Shown here: piece after piece, positions 34,152-53,083 of the stretch
How the letters are laid out: each line of letters opens with the position of its first letter
Numbering within the stretch: position 1 is the stretch's first letter
DNA from: Sphingobacteriaceae bacterium
Lineage (GTDB): Bacteria > Bacteroidota > Bacteroidia > UBA7662
Assembly: GCA_030682795.1 (NCBI GenBank)
Contig: JAUXNJ010000040.1
Span: forward strand, 62,001 to 126,000
Reading direction: 5' to 3'
DNA length: 64,000 bases
Made by a program: the position numbers and the translations under genes
Notes under the pieces: model-generated
Told to the model about the DNA's origin: nothing
The model's input: the letters and a program-made list of their open reading frames with translations, nothing else
Database searches by the model: none

Positions 34152-34397
34152 TCAATCGCACAAACAGGCTTCACATGCTGACTGAGTGGCAAAACCATAG
34201 GCTCCACACCCACTATAAGCAATCATTTCACACTTATTGGTGCCTGCATCGTAAAACCAGCGTTCAAAGTAGGCAGCGCAAGCTTCGTTGTTGGGTGGAC
34301 GCTCGCTGCAAGGAGCGGGTTTGTTGTCGCAGTTTTTTTGGCAGGCGCCTAGCAGTAAGCTCGTGCTTAGCAAAAAGCACATGGAGAAAATTTTCAT
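34152..34397 (-). CDS. Kunitz/BPTI-like domain lipoprotein
   Basis: 81 residues. Lipobox LLLGAC (Cys19), then a Kunitz-like core with Cys at 30, 40, 56, 64, 75, 78 and 80. Spacing from Cys30 is 9, 15, 7, 10 and 2 (canonical 8, 15, 7, 12, 3), and the diagnostic ACAAYFERWFYDAGTNKCEMIAYSGCG segment fits the F-x-x-W/Y-Y-D and C-x-x-x-x-Y-x-G-C pattern. A further Cys is at 23. The P1-equivalent residue is Ala41, which argues against trypsin inhibition. Kunitz domains are rare in bacteria; as a lipoprotein it could block a secreted protease. Its 5' boundary (MKIFSMCFLL) is a good signal peptide. Confidence 0.8.
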   Translation of the reverse strand: MKIFSMCFLLSTSLLLGACQKNCDNKPAPCSERPPNNEACAAYFERWFYDAGTNKCEMIAYSGCGAYGFATQSACEACLCD

Positions 34398-34441: not shown

Positions 34442-35113
34442 CTAGAATTTTTTGCCTTGCGAGATGGTTTTGAACAAACCAAGGTGGAAACCTGGTCCAA
34501 AACTCGGATTCGCTTGTAAAATTGATGGCGAAACAAGCACGTTCACCTCTCCCCGAAAAGTCCATTGAGGAGCCAATTGGTACTCAAAGCCGGCACCTAA
34601 ATGGGGTGTGATGTTGAGGCCTAGGCCACGTGAATAACCCGATGCTGATTGCACAGTTTGTCCTTCATAGTTAATCCTACGTGTTCGATATCGGACCAGA
34701 CTGCCACCAGCCGCCAGTATTTGGACATTGGCAGTAAATCGCCATTTTTCACCTCCACTGCGGTAGCGAACCCCTACTGGAATCAGTAAAGCATGTGTGG
34801 TATTATTCCTGAATTCTCCAGCAATGCCATTATAATTTATTCTACTGTAGGTGGTCGCTCCTTGGCTATTAAAATAGGTCAATCCGGACTCAAGGTAGAA
34901 GGAGCGATTGAGCCGAAAGCCATAAATAAAATCGAGCTGCATATTCATTTCTCGTGGTCCTGAGTACAACACTCCATTGTATAACCGATACGAAGTAGGA
35001 GTAAATCCTTGGCGGATGCCCCAATAATTTCTGCCAAGCGTTGTTTCCATGCTTTGCGCTGAAGCGGTCATGCTGGCGGTGATGACCAAAATAAATAGGA
35101 CTAATTTCTTCAT
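34442..35113 (-). CDS. Outer-membrane beta-barrel protein (PorT-like), copy 1 of three
   Basis: 223 residues with a signal peptide ending ASAQ. Eight-plus amphipathic strands with alternating aromatic residues, for example YWGIRQGFTPTSYRLYNGVLYSG, FYLESGLTYFNSQ and GLNITPHLGAGFEYQLAPQWTF. It is a small barrel of the OmpW/PorT-like type common in Bacteroidota. Function unknown. Confidence 0.7.
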   Translation of the reverse strand: MKKLVLFILVITASMTASAQSMETTLGRNYWGIRQGFTPTSYRLYNGVLYSGPREMNMQLDFIYGFRLNRSFYLESGLTYFNSQGATTYSRINYNGIAGEFRNNTTHALLIPVGVRYRSGGEKWRFTANVQILAAGGSLVRYRTRRINYEGQTVQSASGYSRGLGLNITPHLGAGFEYQLAPQWTFRGEVNVLVSPSILQANPSFGPGFHLGLFKTISQGKKF

Positions 35114-35206
35114 CTTGCTTAGGCTTTAGGTGCTATTTGTTGAAGACGGATTGTAAGGCTTTTGGGTTGCTTTCAATGGCATTTTGCCTTATTTGTATAG
35201 GAACTG

Positions 35207-35941
35207 CTATCGCGACTTTTTGAGTTTTGAGGGAGGTAAATAGAACAGCAGTTTGGCGTAGGGTAATAAAAATAAGCTCGGCACCCCCAATACACCCAGT
35301 TGCAAGCCATATTTTTTATGGCCGTTGCTGGTGTAGCTCAGACCTGTTCCCAACCGAGGCAGGGGAGCAGCCAAAAACGTGCTACTCCTGGTTTGGAATG
35401 GCTCGCTACTTGAAAAACCCGGTTGATCAATGCTGAAAAAGGAGACATGGCCATTTTCAATGCGATGTTGTAGGAAAAAGAATTGCACACCACCTTCTGC
35501 TTCATAGCGCCACTTTTTTTGACCAAAGGTCCATTTAGCTAGGATAGGAGCAGATAGCAGCAAAACCCGCTCATCAAATCCGAAAATTTTAACCTGCTGC
35601 TCCACAGACCTTACTGTGCTTTGGCCGAACTCGCGTACGTAAAACATTTCTAGGCCCGCTTCCCAACTGAACCGCTGGTATTTTTTGCCTAAATGAAGCG
35701 CTAAGCTGGGTTTAAAAATCTGGAGATAGTCGGTAAAGGCGTATGGTGCCGGGTACATTTGCGGTTGCGTTTCTCCAAAGGGAGCCGTGCCAATGCCTAT
35801 ATATACGTAATAGGGAGATTGTTTATTGGGAAAATAAGTTGTCGAATCCTGCGCATGGCTATTAAAAAACAGGCAAGGCATGCACACGAAGCATAAAATG
35901 GCGTTGCTCCTTGGCCGCAACTGTTTTAGAATTTTTTTCAT
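35207..35941 (-). CDS. Outer-membrane beta-barrel protein, copy 2 of three
   Basis: 244 residues; the signal is in the first ~30 residues (ILCFVCMPCLFFNSHAQ). The body keeps the same layout as the adjacent proteins: a Trp/Glu-containing strand WEAGLEMFYVREFGQST and C-terminal strands ending with KLLFYLPPS. It overlaps the start of the upstream barrel gene by four bases (ATGA), so both are cotranscribed on the minus strand. Confidence 0.65.
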   Translation of the reverse strand: MKKILKQLRPRSNAILCFVCMPCLFFNSHAQDSTTYFPNKQSPYYVYIGIGTAPFGETQPQMYPAPYAFTDYLQIFKPSLALHLGKKYQRFSWEAGLEMFYVREFGQSTVRSVEQQVKIFGFDERVLLLSAPILAKWTFGQKKWRYEAEGGVQFFFLQHRIENGHVSFFSIDQPGFSSSEPFQTRSSTFLAAPLPRLGTGLSYTSNGHKKYGLQLGVLGVPSLFLLPYAKLLFYLPPSKLKKSR

Positions 35942-36591
35942 AAACGATAACCTATGTTGGTTTCAAAGGCATACACCATACGGGGTACGCTACCAGGAAA
36001 TATGAGTACGCCCGATTTTACTCCCAACACCATTTGCCTGGGTAATTGGTAGTACAGTCCTATTCCAGCCCTGCTGATGTAATCGATGCCCACAAAATGT
36101 TGCTGCTCACTGGCGAGCAGACTGCTTGGTCCTTGATTGGGAGGGGAATAAAAGTCATGACGAAAACTGCTAGCAACAAGTATGTTAAAGCCTGCCTCGG
36201 CTTCAATGCGGAGGTTTCGAAAGGGAAGTCCTATTTTGGCAAGCAGTGGAATCATGTACAACTGTGCTTGTATCTGCATTGGCAGTTCTGGTTCACTACC
36301 GTCATTGAGTTTAATTCGGCCTAAACCCTGACCCTCAAGCTGCATATAAGTTAGACCAGTTTCCCACCCTGTGAATTTGGTGCTGCGCCCATAACTTACA
36401 CCCATTTGGTAACTGGCATTGAGCGGCCAATAACTATTGATATTGCTTGCTCTCCCGTTCGATGACCAAGCAGCGTTATCAACCAATTTGCTGGCATGCA
36501 AACCTACCCTGCTTTCTGACAAGCTTGGTGGCTGTGCCCAGCCCACAGGCACGAACCACAATAGCAGCCAACTGGTTATGATTATTTTCAT
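35938..36591 (-). CDS. Outer-membrane beta-barrel protein, copy 3 of three
   Basis: 217 residues from ATG 36591 (MKIIITSWLLLWFVPVGWAQ signal); a longer frame to 36618 adds nine residues that break the signal. It carries the strand WETGLTYMQLEGQGLG, matching WEAGLEMFYV and LESGLTYF in the neighbours, and ends YAFETNIGYRL with a C-terminal aromatic strand. It overlaps the middle copy by four bases. The three genes look like tandem diverged duplicates. Confidence 0.65.
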   Translation of the reverse strand: MKIIITSWLLLWFVPVGWAQPPSLSESRVGLHASKLVDNAAWSSNGRASNINSYWPLNASYQMGVSYGRSTKFTGWETGLTYMQLEGQGLGRIKLNDGSEPELPMQIQAQLYMIPLLAKIGLPFRNLRIEAEAGFNILVASSFRHDFYSPPNQGPSSLLASEQQHFVGIDYISRAGIGLYYQLPRQMVLGVKSGVLIFPGSVPRMVYAFETNIGYRL

Positions 36592-36760
36592 TAGAATTAA
36601 AAACACTAATCTAATCAATCATTTGAAAGCAAACAAATCGAAATGCTTGGCAATCAATGTGAGGGTAAGATGGATAAGAATAGGGGGGAGTATTGCGACT
36701 ACATTAATTTTCAGTTGGTTAGTTGGTAGGGTCATAAATTTTTATCAATTTTAAAAGCGA

Positions 36761-38297: not shown

Positions 38298-38494
38298 CAC
38301 TCCGTGTCCACCGTGACCTCAGTGTTTTGACTAGTAACCACTCCGTGTCCACCGTGACCTCAGTGTTTTGCCCTAATAACCACTCCGTGTCCTCCGTGAC
38401 CTCAGTGTTTTACCCTAATAACCACTCCGTGTCCTCCGTGACCTCAGTGTTTTGCCCAGTAACCACTCCGTGTCCTCCGTGACCTCAGTGTTTT
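38298..38494 (+). repeat. Five tandem 31-bp units, period 41-42 bp, directly before the DUF1501 gene
   Basis: Units start at 38298, 38339, 38381, 38423 and 38464; each begins CACTCCGTGTCC(A/T)CCGTGA and ends CTCAGTGTTTT. The 10-11-base linkers are also nearly alike (GACTAGTAAC, GCCCTAATAAC, ACCCTAATAAC, GCCCAGTAAC). Variation is limited to CCACC versus CCTCC and the linkers. The last unit ends 11 bases before the ATG at 38506, so any promoter or ribosome-binding signal of that gene lies within or just after the array. Each unit has CACT...AGTG ends followed by TTTT, allowing only a weak hairpin. Confidence 0.9.
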
Positions 38495-38505
38495 AAAAGA
38501 ATAAA

Positions 38506-49054: not shown

Positions 49055-52000
49055 TTAGCGCAAACTCACCACTAAAGGTAGGTGCAAGTGGCGGCCAGCA
49101 TTCGACCAGTTTACCACGTACATACCAGCAGCGAGAAAGTCGAGGGCAAAACGGTGATCAATCGCGCTTAAACCAGCAGCGATGCTTTCGTTGTATACCA
49201 GCCTTCCCTGCAAATCACGCACTTCTAAGGTGCTTGGAGCCGTGGCATCCAAACCATTTAACCGCAACTCGAAAATGCCCTTTCCAGGATTCGGGAAAAG
49301 AACGGCTTTGAACTCAGCGAGTGATTGCACCGCAGTTGCAAAGGCAATGACTGTTTGACTTATTGTATCGTTTTCGCAGCCATTAATAGCTACGTGTTCT
49401 ACTTGATAAACATTAGAGGATGCATAGTTATGGGTTGGATTGGCATCGGTGGAAGTGCTGCCATCCCCAAAATTCCAAAAATAGCTCGTGGCGTTGGTGG
49501 AGGTGGTGCTGAAGTTTACAGTAGCACCCGTTGCGCTGAAACTGAAGCCAGCATTTGCTGGAGAGCTTATATTGAATGTTTGGCTGGCGTTGCTGCTTCC
49601 TGCCGGGCCAGTGATGGTTAAACTAGCAGTTTTTAGTCCAGTTGAGGCATACCGTACCAGGTGTGGGCCCGCTGTATTTGCAGTTGCAGGTGTGGCGCCT
49701 ACACCAAAATCCCAACTATAACTATTGATGTTGCCCGCACTGCTATTGGTAAAGGTGAGGTCGGTATTGACGCAATAATCGCCGTTTAAAGCAAAACCTA
49801 CTGACATACCGCTGCTGGTGTTCACCGCAATATTGCTCAGATAGAGGTTGTTGCCATAACCACAAATGCCTACAAATTTGATTCGAATTCGGCTGCCTAA
49901 ATAAGGGGTCAAATCTACCGAATCACGGCGCCATTGCGAAGCAAGGTTAGGTGTGAAGGTTGAAGTAAGCGTGCCAACCGTGGCCAAATTAAGCCCTTCC
50001 TTGAAATAGCTACTTGGCTGGTAAGTTTGACCGCAATCGTTCGATACCTCAATACGTAAACCATCAAATAAGGTGGCGCTAAATTGCGCATAAGAAACGT
50101 CAAAGTACAAATATGGTGCAACAACACCCCCGGTGAGGTCGATAACAGGACTCACCAGCGCATCTATTTGGCCTGCCGCGTTGTAGCTAAAAAAGTTGAT
50201 CCAGGCCATGCCGGTATTGGAGGCACCGCTCGCACCTACTCCTGTTCGGAATTGCCAAGTAGCGGCATTGTCGGGATTTTCAATGCGCCAATTTGCAGGG
50301 AGACTGGCCGTGGCAAAAGTTTCGGTAACGGGAATTGCCATGCCATTGCCCACACTAATGTAATTAGAGCGAATGGATGTGTCTGCACCATACTGGTTAC
50401 TGGCGATGAGCTGCACGGTATAAGCCCCATTGGCGGTGAAGGCTACAACAGGACTTTGACTGCTGTCGTTGGTGCCATTCATATAAGTAAAACTGCTCGG
50501 TGTGATGCTCCAACGCCAGCTGGTGGCGCCATTGAGGCTTTGGTCGGTGAGAATGATTTCTTGGTTCGGACAAGTCGCTGTGCTGCTAGCTACAAAATTG
50601 GCCGCAGGGGCAGCCTGACAGCCAAAAGTGGTATTAAGTGGCTTGATTACTGCCAAGGAGCGACGGCCTTTGATGCCATTTGCGCCTATTGGCGCCACTG
50701 CAAACCAAGTGGTATCGCTTGGTGTAATGCCCGTAACGGTAAAGTTTGTGGTAGCAGTAACACCAATTGAATCCATGTAGCGCTGACCCAAACGATATAT
50801 AATGTACCCCTCTGCATTGGTTACAGGATTCCAACTCAAACCAAGTTCGGTTGGACAAATAAAGGAATAGATGATGTTGCTTACTAGCGGAATAATCGTA
50901 AAGTTTTGAGCCGATTCTGAACTAATGCTGCCAGCTACTACTCGAATTCTAGCGCGTCCCGTGATGGTATTGGGTACGGTCCAGCTTACATGGCGCACAT
51001 TGTTCGCCAAATTGGTGGCTATATTCGTCCAAGTGCCGCCGTTATTGGTCGTAAACTGGACGGTAAATGTACCGGGTACCCCAACAGCATCCCAACGAAT
51101 CAATTCAGTTTCACCTGGCACAAAGCCTTCACCACCCATGGGATAGGCTACGGTTATTTCTTCGGTATACCATTCGTATACAATCCAGTAGCGTTGCGGA
51201 CCAAAAGGCACGGCAGTACCGTGCACACGGATGCTATAATTGCCCTCAGTAGGATCGGTGATGGTTACCTGTTCTGCATTGTTGAGGGTGTCTACACCAC
51301 GCACAGCAGGACTATTCAAGGCAGCTACCGTTGGAGTAGGATTCAGTACCCAAGGCAACACCACACTTCCGCCGGGAGCATGCACCCGCAAGTCGAGGTT
51401 GTTTACCAAGGCCTTGGTGGTATTGGCTACCCCCGCTTTGTCGGCCCAATACACCATGATGCGAAGTTCTTTTACGTTGGCAGGTACTTGCAAGGCATGT
51501 ACGGCACTATCGCCTGTGCTGATGTTACCAGTAAAGAAGCGGTTGTTTTCTATGGTTTGAACGGCGCGTAAGGCGTTAATGCGGCCCCAGCCGAAGCGGA
51601 AATCTGGACCAGGATTGCCTAAATCCTGTGCCGTATTTAACATGGCGGCCTTTAAAAAGGCTGATGGGGGAACCGAATCGTTGTTGTTAGCGCGGTAAGC
51701 ATGGCTTAACTGCGCAAAAATGCCTGCGATGCCGGGAGAAGCGGCTGAAGTGCCTCCACCAACCAAATAGGTATTATTGGGGCCAGTAGATAGTTGATTA
51801 AAGCCGTTTGCTGCAATATCTGGCTTTATACGGCCATCTTGTGCGGGCCCCCTGCTACTGCTGTTTTCTAATGAATCGGTATTGCGCAAATTGGCAACGG
51901 CCATTACGTTTTTAGCAGCCTTATAACCGCCTGTAATATTGCCCCAACCGGCACCTGCACCGTAGTTGTGGTTAGCCGTGCCCGCATTTCCTGCTGAAAA

Positions 52001-53083
52001 TACATGCATGAGCATGGTATTGTTGCGGATTTGGTCGTCGATGGTGGCTGCATCTGCTGTATAAACGCCTCCATTGCCTTGACTGTAGGAAGTAGAAGTG
52101 ATGGTGGTGCCCAGATTAGCATAATTGGCTACAGCAGGAACAACATGTGGATAGTTGCTAATGGCATACAAATGCAAGTAAGCACCTGGAGCCATGCCCT
52201 TTTTGGTAGGGTCGAGGTTAGCAGCACCTACAGCAATGCCCGATACCATATCTCCATGGGTGTTGTTTAAGGCAAAATTGGTGGTGTACTGCGTGAGACG
52301 GCCAGTGAAGTCGATGTGTGGACCAATAGCCCCGTCGTCGGCAATGCCCATCACCACGCCCGTGCCGTCGTAGCGGCGGCCGCCTTGCATTTGGTTATCG
52401 ATGCTGTGCGAGCGGTGCAAGGAGCGACCTTCGCGGTCTTCTGGCTCGCTAAAAGGCGCAGCGGGTTCCACAAATTGTATGGCAGGATGGGCAGTGAGTG
52501 TTTTTAAATCGCGCGGATGTACATAGCCGCTCACCAAATGCTCGCTGTAGCGGTTTTTGGTAGGACTAAAGCTCGAGGTGCTCCATATAAAGTGGTTTAG
52601 CTTTCCCAGATCAACCGTTTCGAAGGCTTGAATGCTTACCAAAATGCGGTCACCATTGCGTTCCAACGGACGGTGCTCCAAGGGCTTTACCAAGGCCGGG
52701 TCGAGTTTGATATTGGCTGGGATGGCTGCTATAGAAATTACATTTGCTGCCTGTAGTGAGCGCAAATCATAATTAGTTTTAGCAGAAGCAAAGTAAGAGG
52801 CTTTTCCAGCATAACCTTCAAAATACAAGCCTGAGGCCTGTAACTGGTCAAAAGTTTTTTGGTTAGGTAGCTTCTCGAAACTCAATAAAAAGTATTTTTT
52901 TGATTCGAAAGCAGCTAGTTTCTCCCAAGCCAATTGCATTTGCTCCATGGTTTGCGGGACGATGCGTACTTGGCCATTTTGAAAGGAAAGCACCGTACTG
53001 GCAGGTTGCAATTGTGAAACAGCTGGGCCGCTCCATAAGCTAAAAGCAAGCAGTACTGAAAACAGGATAGAAGTTCTTTTCAT
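49055..53083 (-). CDS. Subtilisin-like (S8) secreted protease with PKD domains and T9SS sorting domain
   Basis: 1342 residues. Signal peptide (~24), a propeptide to about residue 215, then the S8 domain: Asp249 in GIADDGA, His276 in NTHGDMVSG, oxyanion Asn366 in FSAGNAG and Ser446 in GGGTSAASP, all present. After it come Ig-/fibronectin-like domains, a PKD-like region (DQSLNGATSWRWS), a jelly-roll-like domain with cysteine turns, another PKD (YFWNFGDGSTSTDANP) and a type A T9SS sorting domain (VLFPNPGKGIFELRL...AAGMYVVNW). It is a cell-surface or released protease, probably degrading proteins outside the cell. It is expressed from its own promoter on the minus strand. Confidence 0.95.
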   Translation of the reverse strand: MKRTSILFSVLLAFSLWSGPAVSQLQPASTVLSFQNGQVRIVPQTMEQMQLAWEKLAAFESKKYFLLSFEKLPNQKTFDQLQASGLYFEGYAGKASYFASAKTNYDLRSLQAANVISIAAIPANIKLDPALVKPLEHRPLERNGDRILVSIQAFETVDLGKLNHFIWSTSSFSPTKNRYSEHLVSGYVHPRDLKTLTAHPAIQFVEPAAPFSEPEDREGRSLHRSHSIDNQMQGGRRYDGTGVVMGIADDGAIGPHIDFTGRLTQYTTNFALNNTHGDMVSGIAVGAANLDPTKKGMAPGAYLHLYAISNYPHVVPAVANYANLGTTITSTSYSQGNGGVYTADAATIDDQIRNNTMLMHVFSAGNAGTANHNYGAGAGWGNITGGYKAAKNVMAVANLRNTDSLENSSSRGPAQDGRIKPDIAANGFNQLSTGPNNTYLVGGGTSAASPGIAGIFAQLSHAYRANNNDSVPPSAFLKAAMLNTAQDLGNPGPDFRFGWGRINALRAVQTIENNRFFTGNISTGDSAVHALQVPANVKELRIMVYWADKAGVANTTKALVNNLDLRVHAPGGSVVLPWVLNPTPTVAALNSPAVRGVDTLNNAEQVTITDPTEGNYSIRVHGTAVPFGPQRYWIVYEWYTEEITVAYPMGGEGFVPGETELIRWDAVGVPGTFTVQFTTNNGGTWTNIATNLANNVRHVSWTVPNTITGRARIRVVAGSISSESAQNFTIIPLVSNIIYSFICPTELGLSWNPVTNAEGYIIYRLGQRYMDSIGVTATTNFTVTGITPSDTTWFAVAPIGANGIKGRRSLAVIKPLNTTFGCQAAPAANFVASSTATCPNQEIILTDQSLNGATSWRWSITPSSFTYMNGTNDSSQSPVVAFTANGAYTVQLIASNQYGADTSIRSNYISVGNGMAIPVTETFATASLPANWRIENPDNAATWQFRTGVGASGASNTGMAWINFFSYNAAGQIDALVSPVIDLTGGVVAPYLYFDVSYAQFSATLFDGLRIEVSNDCGQTYQPSSYFKEGLNLATVGTLTSTFTPNLASQWRRDSVDLTPYLGSRIRIKFVGICGYGNNLYLSNIAVNTSSGMSVGFALNGDYCVNTDLTFTNSSAGNINSYSWDFGVGATPATANTAGPHLVRYASTGLKTASLTITGPAGSSNASQTFNISSPANAGFSFSATGATVNFSTTSTNATSYFWNFGDGSTSTDANPTHNYASSNVYQVEHVAINGCENDTISQTVIAFATAVQSLAEFKAVLFPNPGKGIFELRLNGLDATAPSTLEVRDLQGRLVYNESIAAGLSAIDHRFALDFLAAGMYVVNWSNAGRHLHLPLVVSLR

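Follow-up and report, generated by a model that had tools for sequence, protein, structure and literature searches.

A family of Bacteroidota Kunitz-domain lipoproteins with a variable P1 residue, candidate surface inhibitors of foreign serine proteases

Textbooks present the Kunitz domain as an animal inhibitor, and the original prediction for the locus studied here likewise called it mainly animal. The canonical cysteine spacing of BPTI is 8, 15, 7, 12 and 3 residues, and the canonical reactive loop comprises Gly12, a small P1' residue, Gly36 and Gly37. The animal emphasis has to be qualified, however, as a bacterial Kunitz inhibitor has already been published (PMC11511053). That paper describes a Kunitz protein of Acinetobacter baumannii F6W77 with domains KABP1-5, of which those with Leu at P1 inhibit elastase and those with Arg at P1 do not (PMC11511053). 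Both PF00014 and bacterial Kunitz inhibitors are known already.

Here we describe a small lipoprotein gene in a window of 64,000 nucleotides (the whole stretch of DNA that was analysed) from a Sphingobacteriaceae bacterium. By a slight balance of probability, we regard its product as a surface-anchored inhibitor of foreign serine proteases.

Domain architecture, predicted fold and lipid anchor

The features of the gene are collected in Table 1. Residue conservation was read from a site table of 53 rows (the window and 52 further loci), in which locus L058 is cut at a contig end and has no first core Cys, and locus L025 is represented by the middle one of its three copies (P1 Gln).

Table 1. 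Features of the Kunitz lipoprotein gene (positions in the window)
Feature	Position	Strand	Basis
Whole ORF, Kunitz-domain lipoprotein precursor	34152..34397	-	81 aa, stop codon included; PF00014 31.8 bits
Signal peptide and lipobox, residues 1-19, ending LLLGA-C19	34341..34397	-	Sequence; Cys in this column in 51/51 rows reaching it; lipid-modified Cys expected
Tether, residues 20-29, with extra Cys23	34311..34340	-	Cys23 in 49/53 rows
Kunitz core, residues 30-79, Cys 30, 40, 56, 64, 75, 78	34161..34310	-	PF00014 alignment 30-77; predicted strands 43-50 and 55-62, helix 72-80
Putative reactive-site loop, residues 38-45 (E-A-C-A-A-Y-F-E), P1 = Ala41	34263..34286	-	Site table: E38 49/53, C40 53/53, P1 variable, A42 52/53, F44 52/53
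Extra C-terminal Cys80, last of the C-x2-C-x-C tail	34158..34160	-	Cys in 46/53 rows

A single Pfam family, PF00014 (Kunitz_BPTI), was matched by the ORF, over residues 30-77 and above its cut-off (31.8 versus 21 bits, E = 1.7e-7). A profile search of the whole genome found this family at one place (32.5 bits), and none of 14 control genomes contained it above the cut-off. Among PDB chains, phmmer retrieved SmCI (4.5e-12), boophilin (2.2e-10) and ShPI-1 (3e-6). NCBIfam contains no model for the family; its best match scored 13.1 bits, where 150 would be needed.

The core cysteines of the ORF at 34152-34397 (30-40-56-64-75-78) enclose 9, 15, 7, 10 and 2 residues. Their order is that of a Kunitz domain, but three of the five spacings are altered compared with the canonical ones, and this alteration is common to the family. 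The original prediction of a Kunitz domain with exactly this spacing and with Ala at P1 (Ala41) was borne out. Cys40, Cys56, Cys64 and Cys75 are present in all 53 rows, Cys30 in 52 and Cys78 in 51. Other sites are nearly or fully invariant as well, namely Trp47 (52 of 53), Phe48 (53), Tyr61 (53), Ser62 (47), Gly63 (53), Gly68 (53) and Phe69 (53).

An AlphaFold2 model based on 51 aligned sequences (mean pLDDT 75.3, pTM 0.54; averages of 84-90 for blocks of ten residues between 31 and 80) displays a short helix at residues 29-31, strands at 43-50 and 55-62 and a helix at 72-80, as in BPTI. The alignment left out the scan loci L023, L051, L058 and L060, added L006 and L003 and represented L025 by its middle copy; the resulting model supersedes a poor earlier one from 7 sequences (pLDDT 63.7). 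The best Foldseek match had an E value of 2.2e-3, a probability of 1.00 and a TM score by target of 0.63. None of the 291 matches had an E value of 0.001 or better; the best 50 of them are Kunitz chains, judged by their titles and, for some, by their known identity. VIA-align over 462 chains gave Z values up to 6.0 (HAI-1), with BPTI at 5.9 (54 residues, rmsd 2.6) and alignments to both spanning 54-55 residues; a Z of 6.0 is middling for a domain this small (about 50 residues), and the confidence of the model is moderate. The Kunitz assignment is carried by the sequence profile, and the AlphaFold2 model and the Foldseek search agree with it in pointing to a Kunitz fold rather than to a different one. 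The mature part of about 50 residues would accordingly be a folded Kunitz domain by both profile and structure prediction.

The lipobox is clear and suggests that the precursor would be exported by the Sec pathway and then anchored in the outer membrane through a lipid on Cys19. Cys19 occurs in 51 of the 53 rows, and the other two have a gap there. The surface export signal of Capnocytophaga lipoproteins is given as C-X-K-(D/E)2-X (PMC5080379). Of our 53 rows, 32 have Lys at +3, 27 have Asp or Glu at +4 and 49 have Cys at +5; the window ORF reads C-Q-K-N-C-D, with Lys at +3 and Asp at +6, a partial likeness to a consensus that comes from another genus. Exposure at the cell surface is plausible, and the lipoprotein probably faces outwards, if on weak support.

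Two additional cysteines that the original prediction left unmentioned, Cys23 in the tether and Cys80 at the C-terminus, may form a pair that ties the C-terminal helix to the lipid-bearing tether. Canonical Kunitz disulfides join cysteines 1-6, 2-4 and 3-5; here, either Cys78 or Cys80 may be the partner of Cys30. By a hand count, 43 of the 53 rows have both, six have only Cys23, one has only the C-x2-C-x-C tail, two have neither and one is truncated. Joint loss of the two residues was considered as support for a fourth disulfide and set aside because of the six rows with Cys23 only and the one with the tail only.

Distribution, neighbourhood and origin of the family

A scan of a genome collection covering 84,980 species with two family-specific peptide patterns, which is blind to other bacterial Kunitz types and to variants in other phyla, returned 106 stretches, 54 of them confirmed and corresponding to 52 distinct loci with relatives of the window protein. 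By title, all of these are Bacteroidota except L044 (VHAX01000015.1), which is titled Sphingomonadales. This locus encodes the same protein as G003, a genome from the GTDB family to which the window belongs, and its label is probably wrong. Isolates account for five loci by title (Pontibacter FD36, Taibaiella KBW10, Edaphocola aurantiacus, E. flava and Portibacter marinus).

By GTDB rank, PF00014 was found in 3/3 genomes of the genus, 5/17 of the family, 5/21 of the order and 6/395 sampled genomes of the phylum, one of the last six being the genome of L010. There, a Kunitz-like ORF (L010:1408-1614) seems to be broken in frame after the first strand, which could mean a pseudogene or an assembly error, and it was excluded from the family rows. 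The family profile matched 29 of 395 sampled Bacteroidia genomes, a count that takes in G154, which is of canonical type, and several weaker matches. The lipoprotein branch is scattered through Bacteroidota, and restricted to this phylum as far as scanned. Carriage by viruses or plasmids was rejected, with no relative confirmed among viral contigs and no match among plasmids and phages.

In the window, the nearest upstream gene, 44 bases from the Kunitz gene and in the same orientation, is beta-barrel-like (PF13505, 25.4 bits, below the cut-off of 28.7) and belongs to a run of three consecutive exported, partly beta-barrel-like genes (34442-36618, minus strand). These three have no match at locus L011 of a congener; a pentapeptide-repeat gene adjoins the Kunitz gene in both genomes. 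When 487 neighbouring ORFs from 53 loci were clustered (a crude longest-ORF pick, with some loci cut by contig ends), the commonest cluster occurred in 6 loci. A conserved operon partner was rejected on this ground, and the Kunitz gene appears to travel alone. The window also harbors a tandem array at 38298-38504 (42-base unit, 4.7 copies, 94% match), located in the gap before a 448-aa ORF.

The neighbourhood bears on the idea that the protein inhibits the cell's own exported proteases, either of the periplasmic HtrA/Deg type or secreted subtilases, and so guards the envelope from self-digestion. Its own genome would offer targets: we found nine PF00082 (S8) and five PF00089 (S1) places, and two of the S1 frames look HtrA-like by their signature, judged by eye. 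The window itself encodes a large exported S8 subtilase of 1342 aa with PKD-like repeats (by eye) at 49055-53083 on the minus strand, a possible endogenous target. However, no protease gene is a conserved neighbour, given that the commonest cluster of any kind is limited to 6/53 loci. Such proteases are also widespread (PF00089 in 11/14 control genomes), whereas the family is patchy (29/395), and the diversification of P1 described below suggests changing targets. We consider this self-protective role unlikely.

A maximum-likelihood tree of 61 rows separated 52 family rows from seven animal domains, L006 and L007 with a branch support of 100/100. It is based on 49 columns, with an unsettled bootstrap, long branches and a tiny animal sample; L058 was left out and L025 was represented by its middle copy. 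The tree speaks against recent transfer from the sampled animals, and it gives neither a date nor a direction for an older transfer. The original prediction had brought up horizontal transfer as a possible source of the gene, and the mainly animal occurrence of Kunitz domains would favour a recent import from an animal or animal DNA contaminating the assembly. Yet the gene sits amid bacterial genes on a contig of 242,271 bases, and all three genomes of the genus are positive. The lipobox Cys precedes the domain in every row that reaches this column (51/51), and the 52 family rows stand apart from the seven animal domains at 100/100, albeit with few columns and long branches. Five isolate genomes carry the gene, which argues against contamination as its cause. 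This animal explanation is hardly credible to us: contamination and recent transfer are both very unlikely, recent import from the seven animal relatives being disfavoured by the split in the tree and by a Bacteroidota-wide family under apparent purifying selection, while an old transfer is possible.

P1 variation and the putative inhibitory role

The reactive-site loop departs from the canonical one in several respects. Cys40 follows Cys30 at a distance of 10 in 48 of the 52 readable rows and of 9 in the other four, which means that 48 rows have one residue more before Cys40, the second core Cys. Glu38 falls roughly at the site of Gly12 in BPTI-type inhibitors, and Ser62 at BPTI position 36, normally Gly. 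Among the canonical loop residues, the small P1' (Ala, 52/53) and Gly63 (equivalent to Gly37, 53/53) are kept, while Gly12 and Gly36 are mostly replaced and one residue is inserted. The P1 residue itself (position 41) is Gln in 23 of the 53 rows, Leu in 12, Ala in 10, Thr in three, Met in two and Asn, Arg or Asp in one each.

The extra residue, Glu38 and Ser62 make this loop non-standard, which counts against canonical inhibition. They would suit a Kunitz fold that no longer inhibits proteases and instead serves the cell envelope for binding or structure, the more so as Glu38 and Ser62 replace Gly residues typical of inhibitors; the Foldseek matches include, by their titles, Kunitz chains with other activities. 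On the other hand, P1' (Ala42) and P3' (Phe44) are nearly invariant while P1 varies, a pattern that is hard to explain if the loop makes no contact with a protease. A non-inhibitory module seems unlikely to us. Near-invariant P1' and P3' residues around a variable P1 would fit a canonical inhibitor whose target changes.

Variation at P1 was also evident among close relatives. Of 54 sequences (without L058, with all three L025 copies), the 50 that share the most frequent core length contain 25 pairs that are at least 75% identical across the 46 core residues. P1 differs in 12 of these pairs, the second highest value of the 46 sites after residue 33 (13 pairs), P1' in 1/25 and P3' in 0/25; because the pairs are non-independent, these figures are a description and not a test. 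NG86 dN/dS could be estimated for 18 of these 25 pairs and ranged from 0.00 to 0.13; the other seven, including the window ORF versus L011, gave no dS estimate. The family appears to be under strong purifying selection. Taibaiella sp. KBW10 (L025:5415-6246) encodes three tandem Kunitz lipoproteins with a nearly identical scaffold and Leu, Gln and Lys at P1. The two-copy genomes JAHBUE01 (Arg and Asp) and MKTB01 (Gln and Thr) complete the picture: in 3/3 genomes read with more than one copy, P1 is different in every copy. This is mild support, since P1 differs in 73% of random row pairs anyway. The variability could also reflect mere lack of constraint, because P1 lies at the surface.

Protection from a secreted protease, as originally proposed, is compatible with these findings, and putative inhibition of foreign proteases is the reading we prefer. 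By analogy with the BPTI family, the Cys40-Ala41-Ala42 loop would bind tightly to a serine protease in the manner of a substrate, placing residue 41 in the S1 pocket. Given that P1 is Ala in the window protein and usually Gln, Leu or Ala in its relatives, non-trypsin-like targets are likely; elastase-, chymotrypsin- or subtilisin-like enzymes would be more probable than trypsin-like ones. Possible sources of such proteases are grazers, an animal environment or competing bacteria. Trypsin inhibitors have Arg or Lys and chymotrypsin inhibitors Leu or Met at P1 (PMC5107962), and Leu at P1 is reported to have improved neutrophil-elastase inhibition by SmKI-1 (PMC7846107). One Foldseek match is, by its entry title, the ShPI-1 Lys13Leu structure solved with pancreatic elastase. 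A point against this reading is that Gln, the commonest P1 of the family, is atypical for inhibitors of elastase or chymotrypsin.

As a tentative extension of the inhibitor reading, the phylum-specific eight-Cys Kunitz subfamily might consist of diversifying surface inhibitors whose P1 is switched among copies, as in the Leu/Gln/Lys tandem, to keep up in an arms race against grazer proteases or those of competing bacteria, the lengthened loop and the conserved Glu at P4 accepting Gln at P1. This would amount to a Gln-P1 specificity atypical of animal Kunitz inhibitors. The natural P1 variants Leu, Gln and Lys in one strain make the inhibitor hypothesis directly testable.

Comparison with known Kunitz proteins

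Few bacterial Kunitz domains have been studied, and the Bacteroidota branch is a tractable system for their bacterial use and for the origin of the domain. A search of the literature on bacterial Kunitz proteins found one paper on such a protein, that of Acinetobacter (PMC11511053), and none on the Bacteroidota lipoprotein family. Within that literature, the branch with its own Cys pattern and loop length seems undescribed.

With the Kunitz/BPTI family (PF00014; MEROPS I2, including BPTI, ShPI-1, SmCI and boophilin), it shares the six core cysteines in order, the W-F-Y strand motif, the Y-x-G-C hairpin end, the small P1' and the predicted fold. It differs in the 9-15-7-10-2 spacing (versus 8-15-7-12-3), two extra cysteines, the lipoprotein anchor, Ser at position 36 and a mostly non-basic P1.

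A second, canonical-type Kunitz lipoprotein was observed in other Bacteroidia (L006:1414-1659 and L007:1483-2016), the domain of L007 following about 120 other residues. These proteins resemble the family in their lipobox and Kunitz core. They have higher PF00014 scores (52 and 49.3 bits), a Trp-Gly-Gly-Cys hairpin end, the canonical first spacing of 8 residues and no equivalents of Cys23 or Cys80, and in the 49-column tree the 100/100 branch puts them together with the animal domains.

The Acinetobacter protein is likewise bacterial, exported and Kunitz. As described (PMC11511053), it has five domains (KABP1-5) with the classical six-Cys frame and Arg or Leu at P1, and is presented as a secreted exotoxin. 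Judged against that published description, the Bacteroidota family is set apart by its one domain and its predicted lipid anchor.
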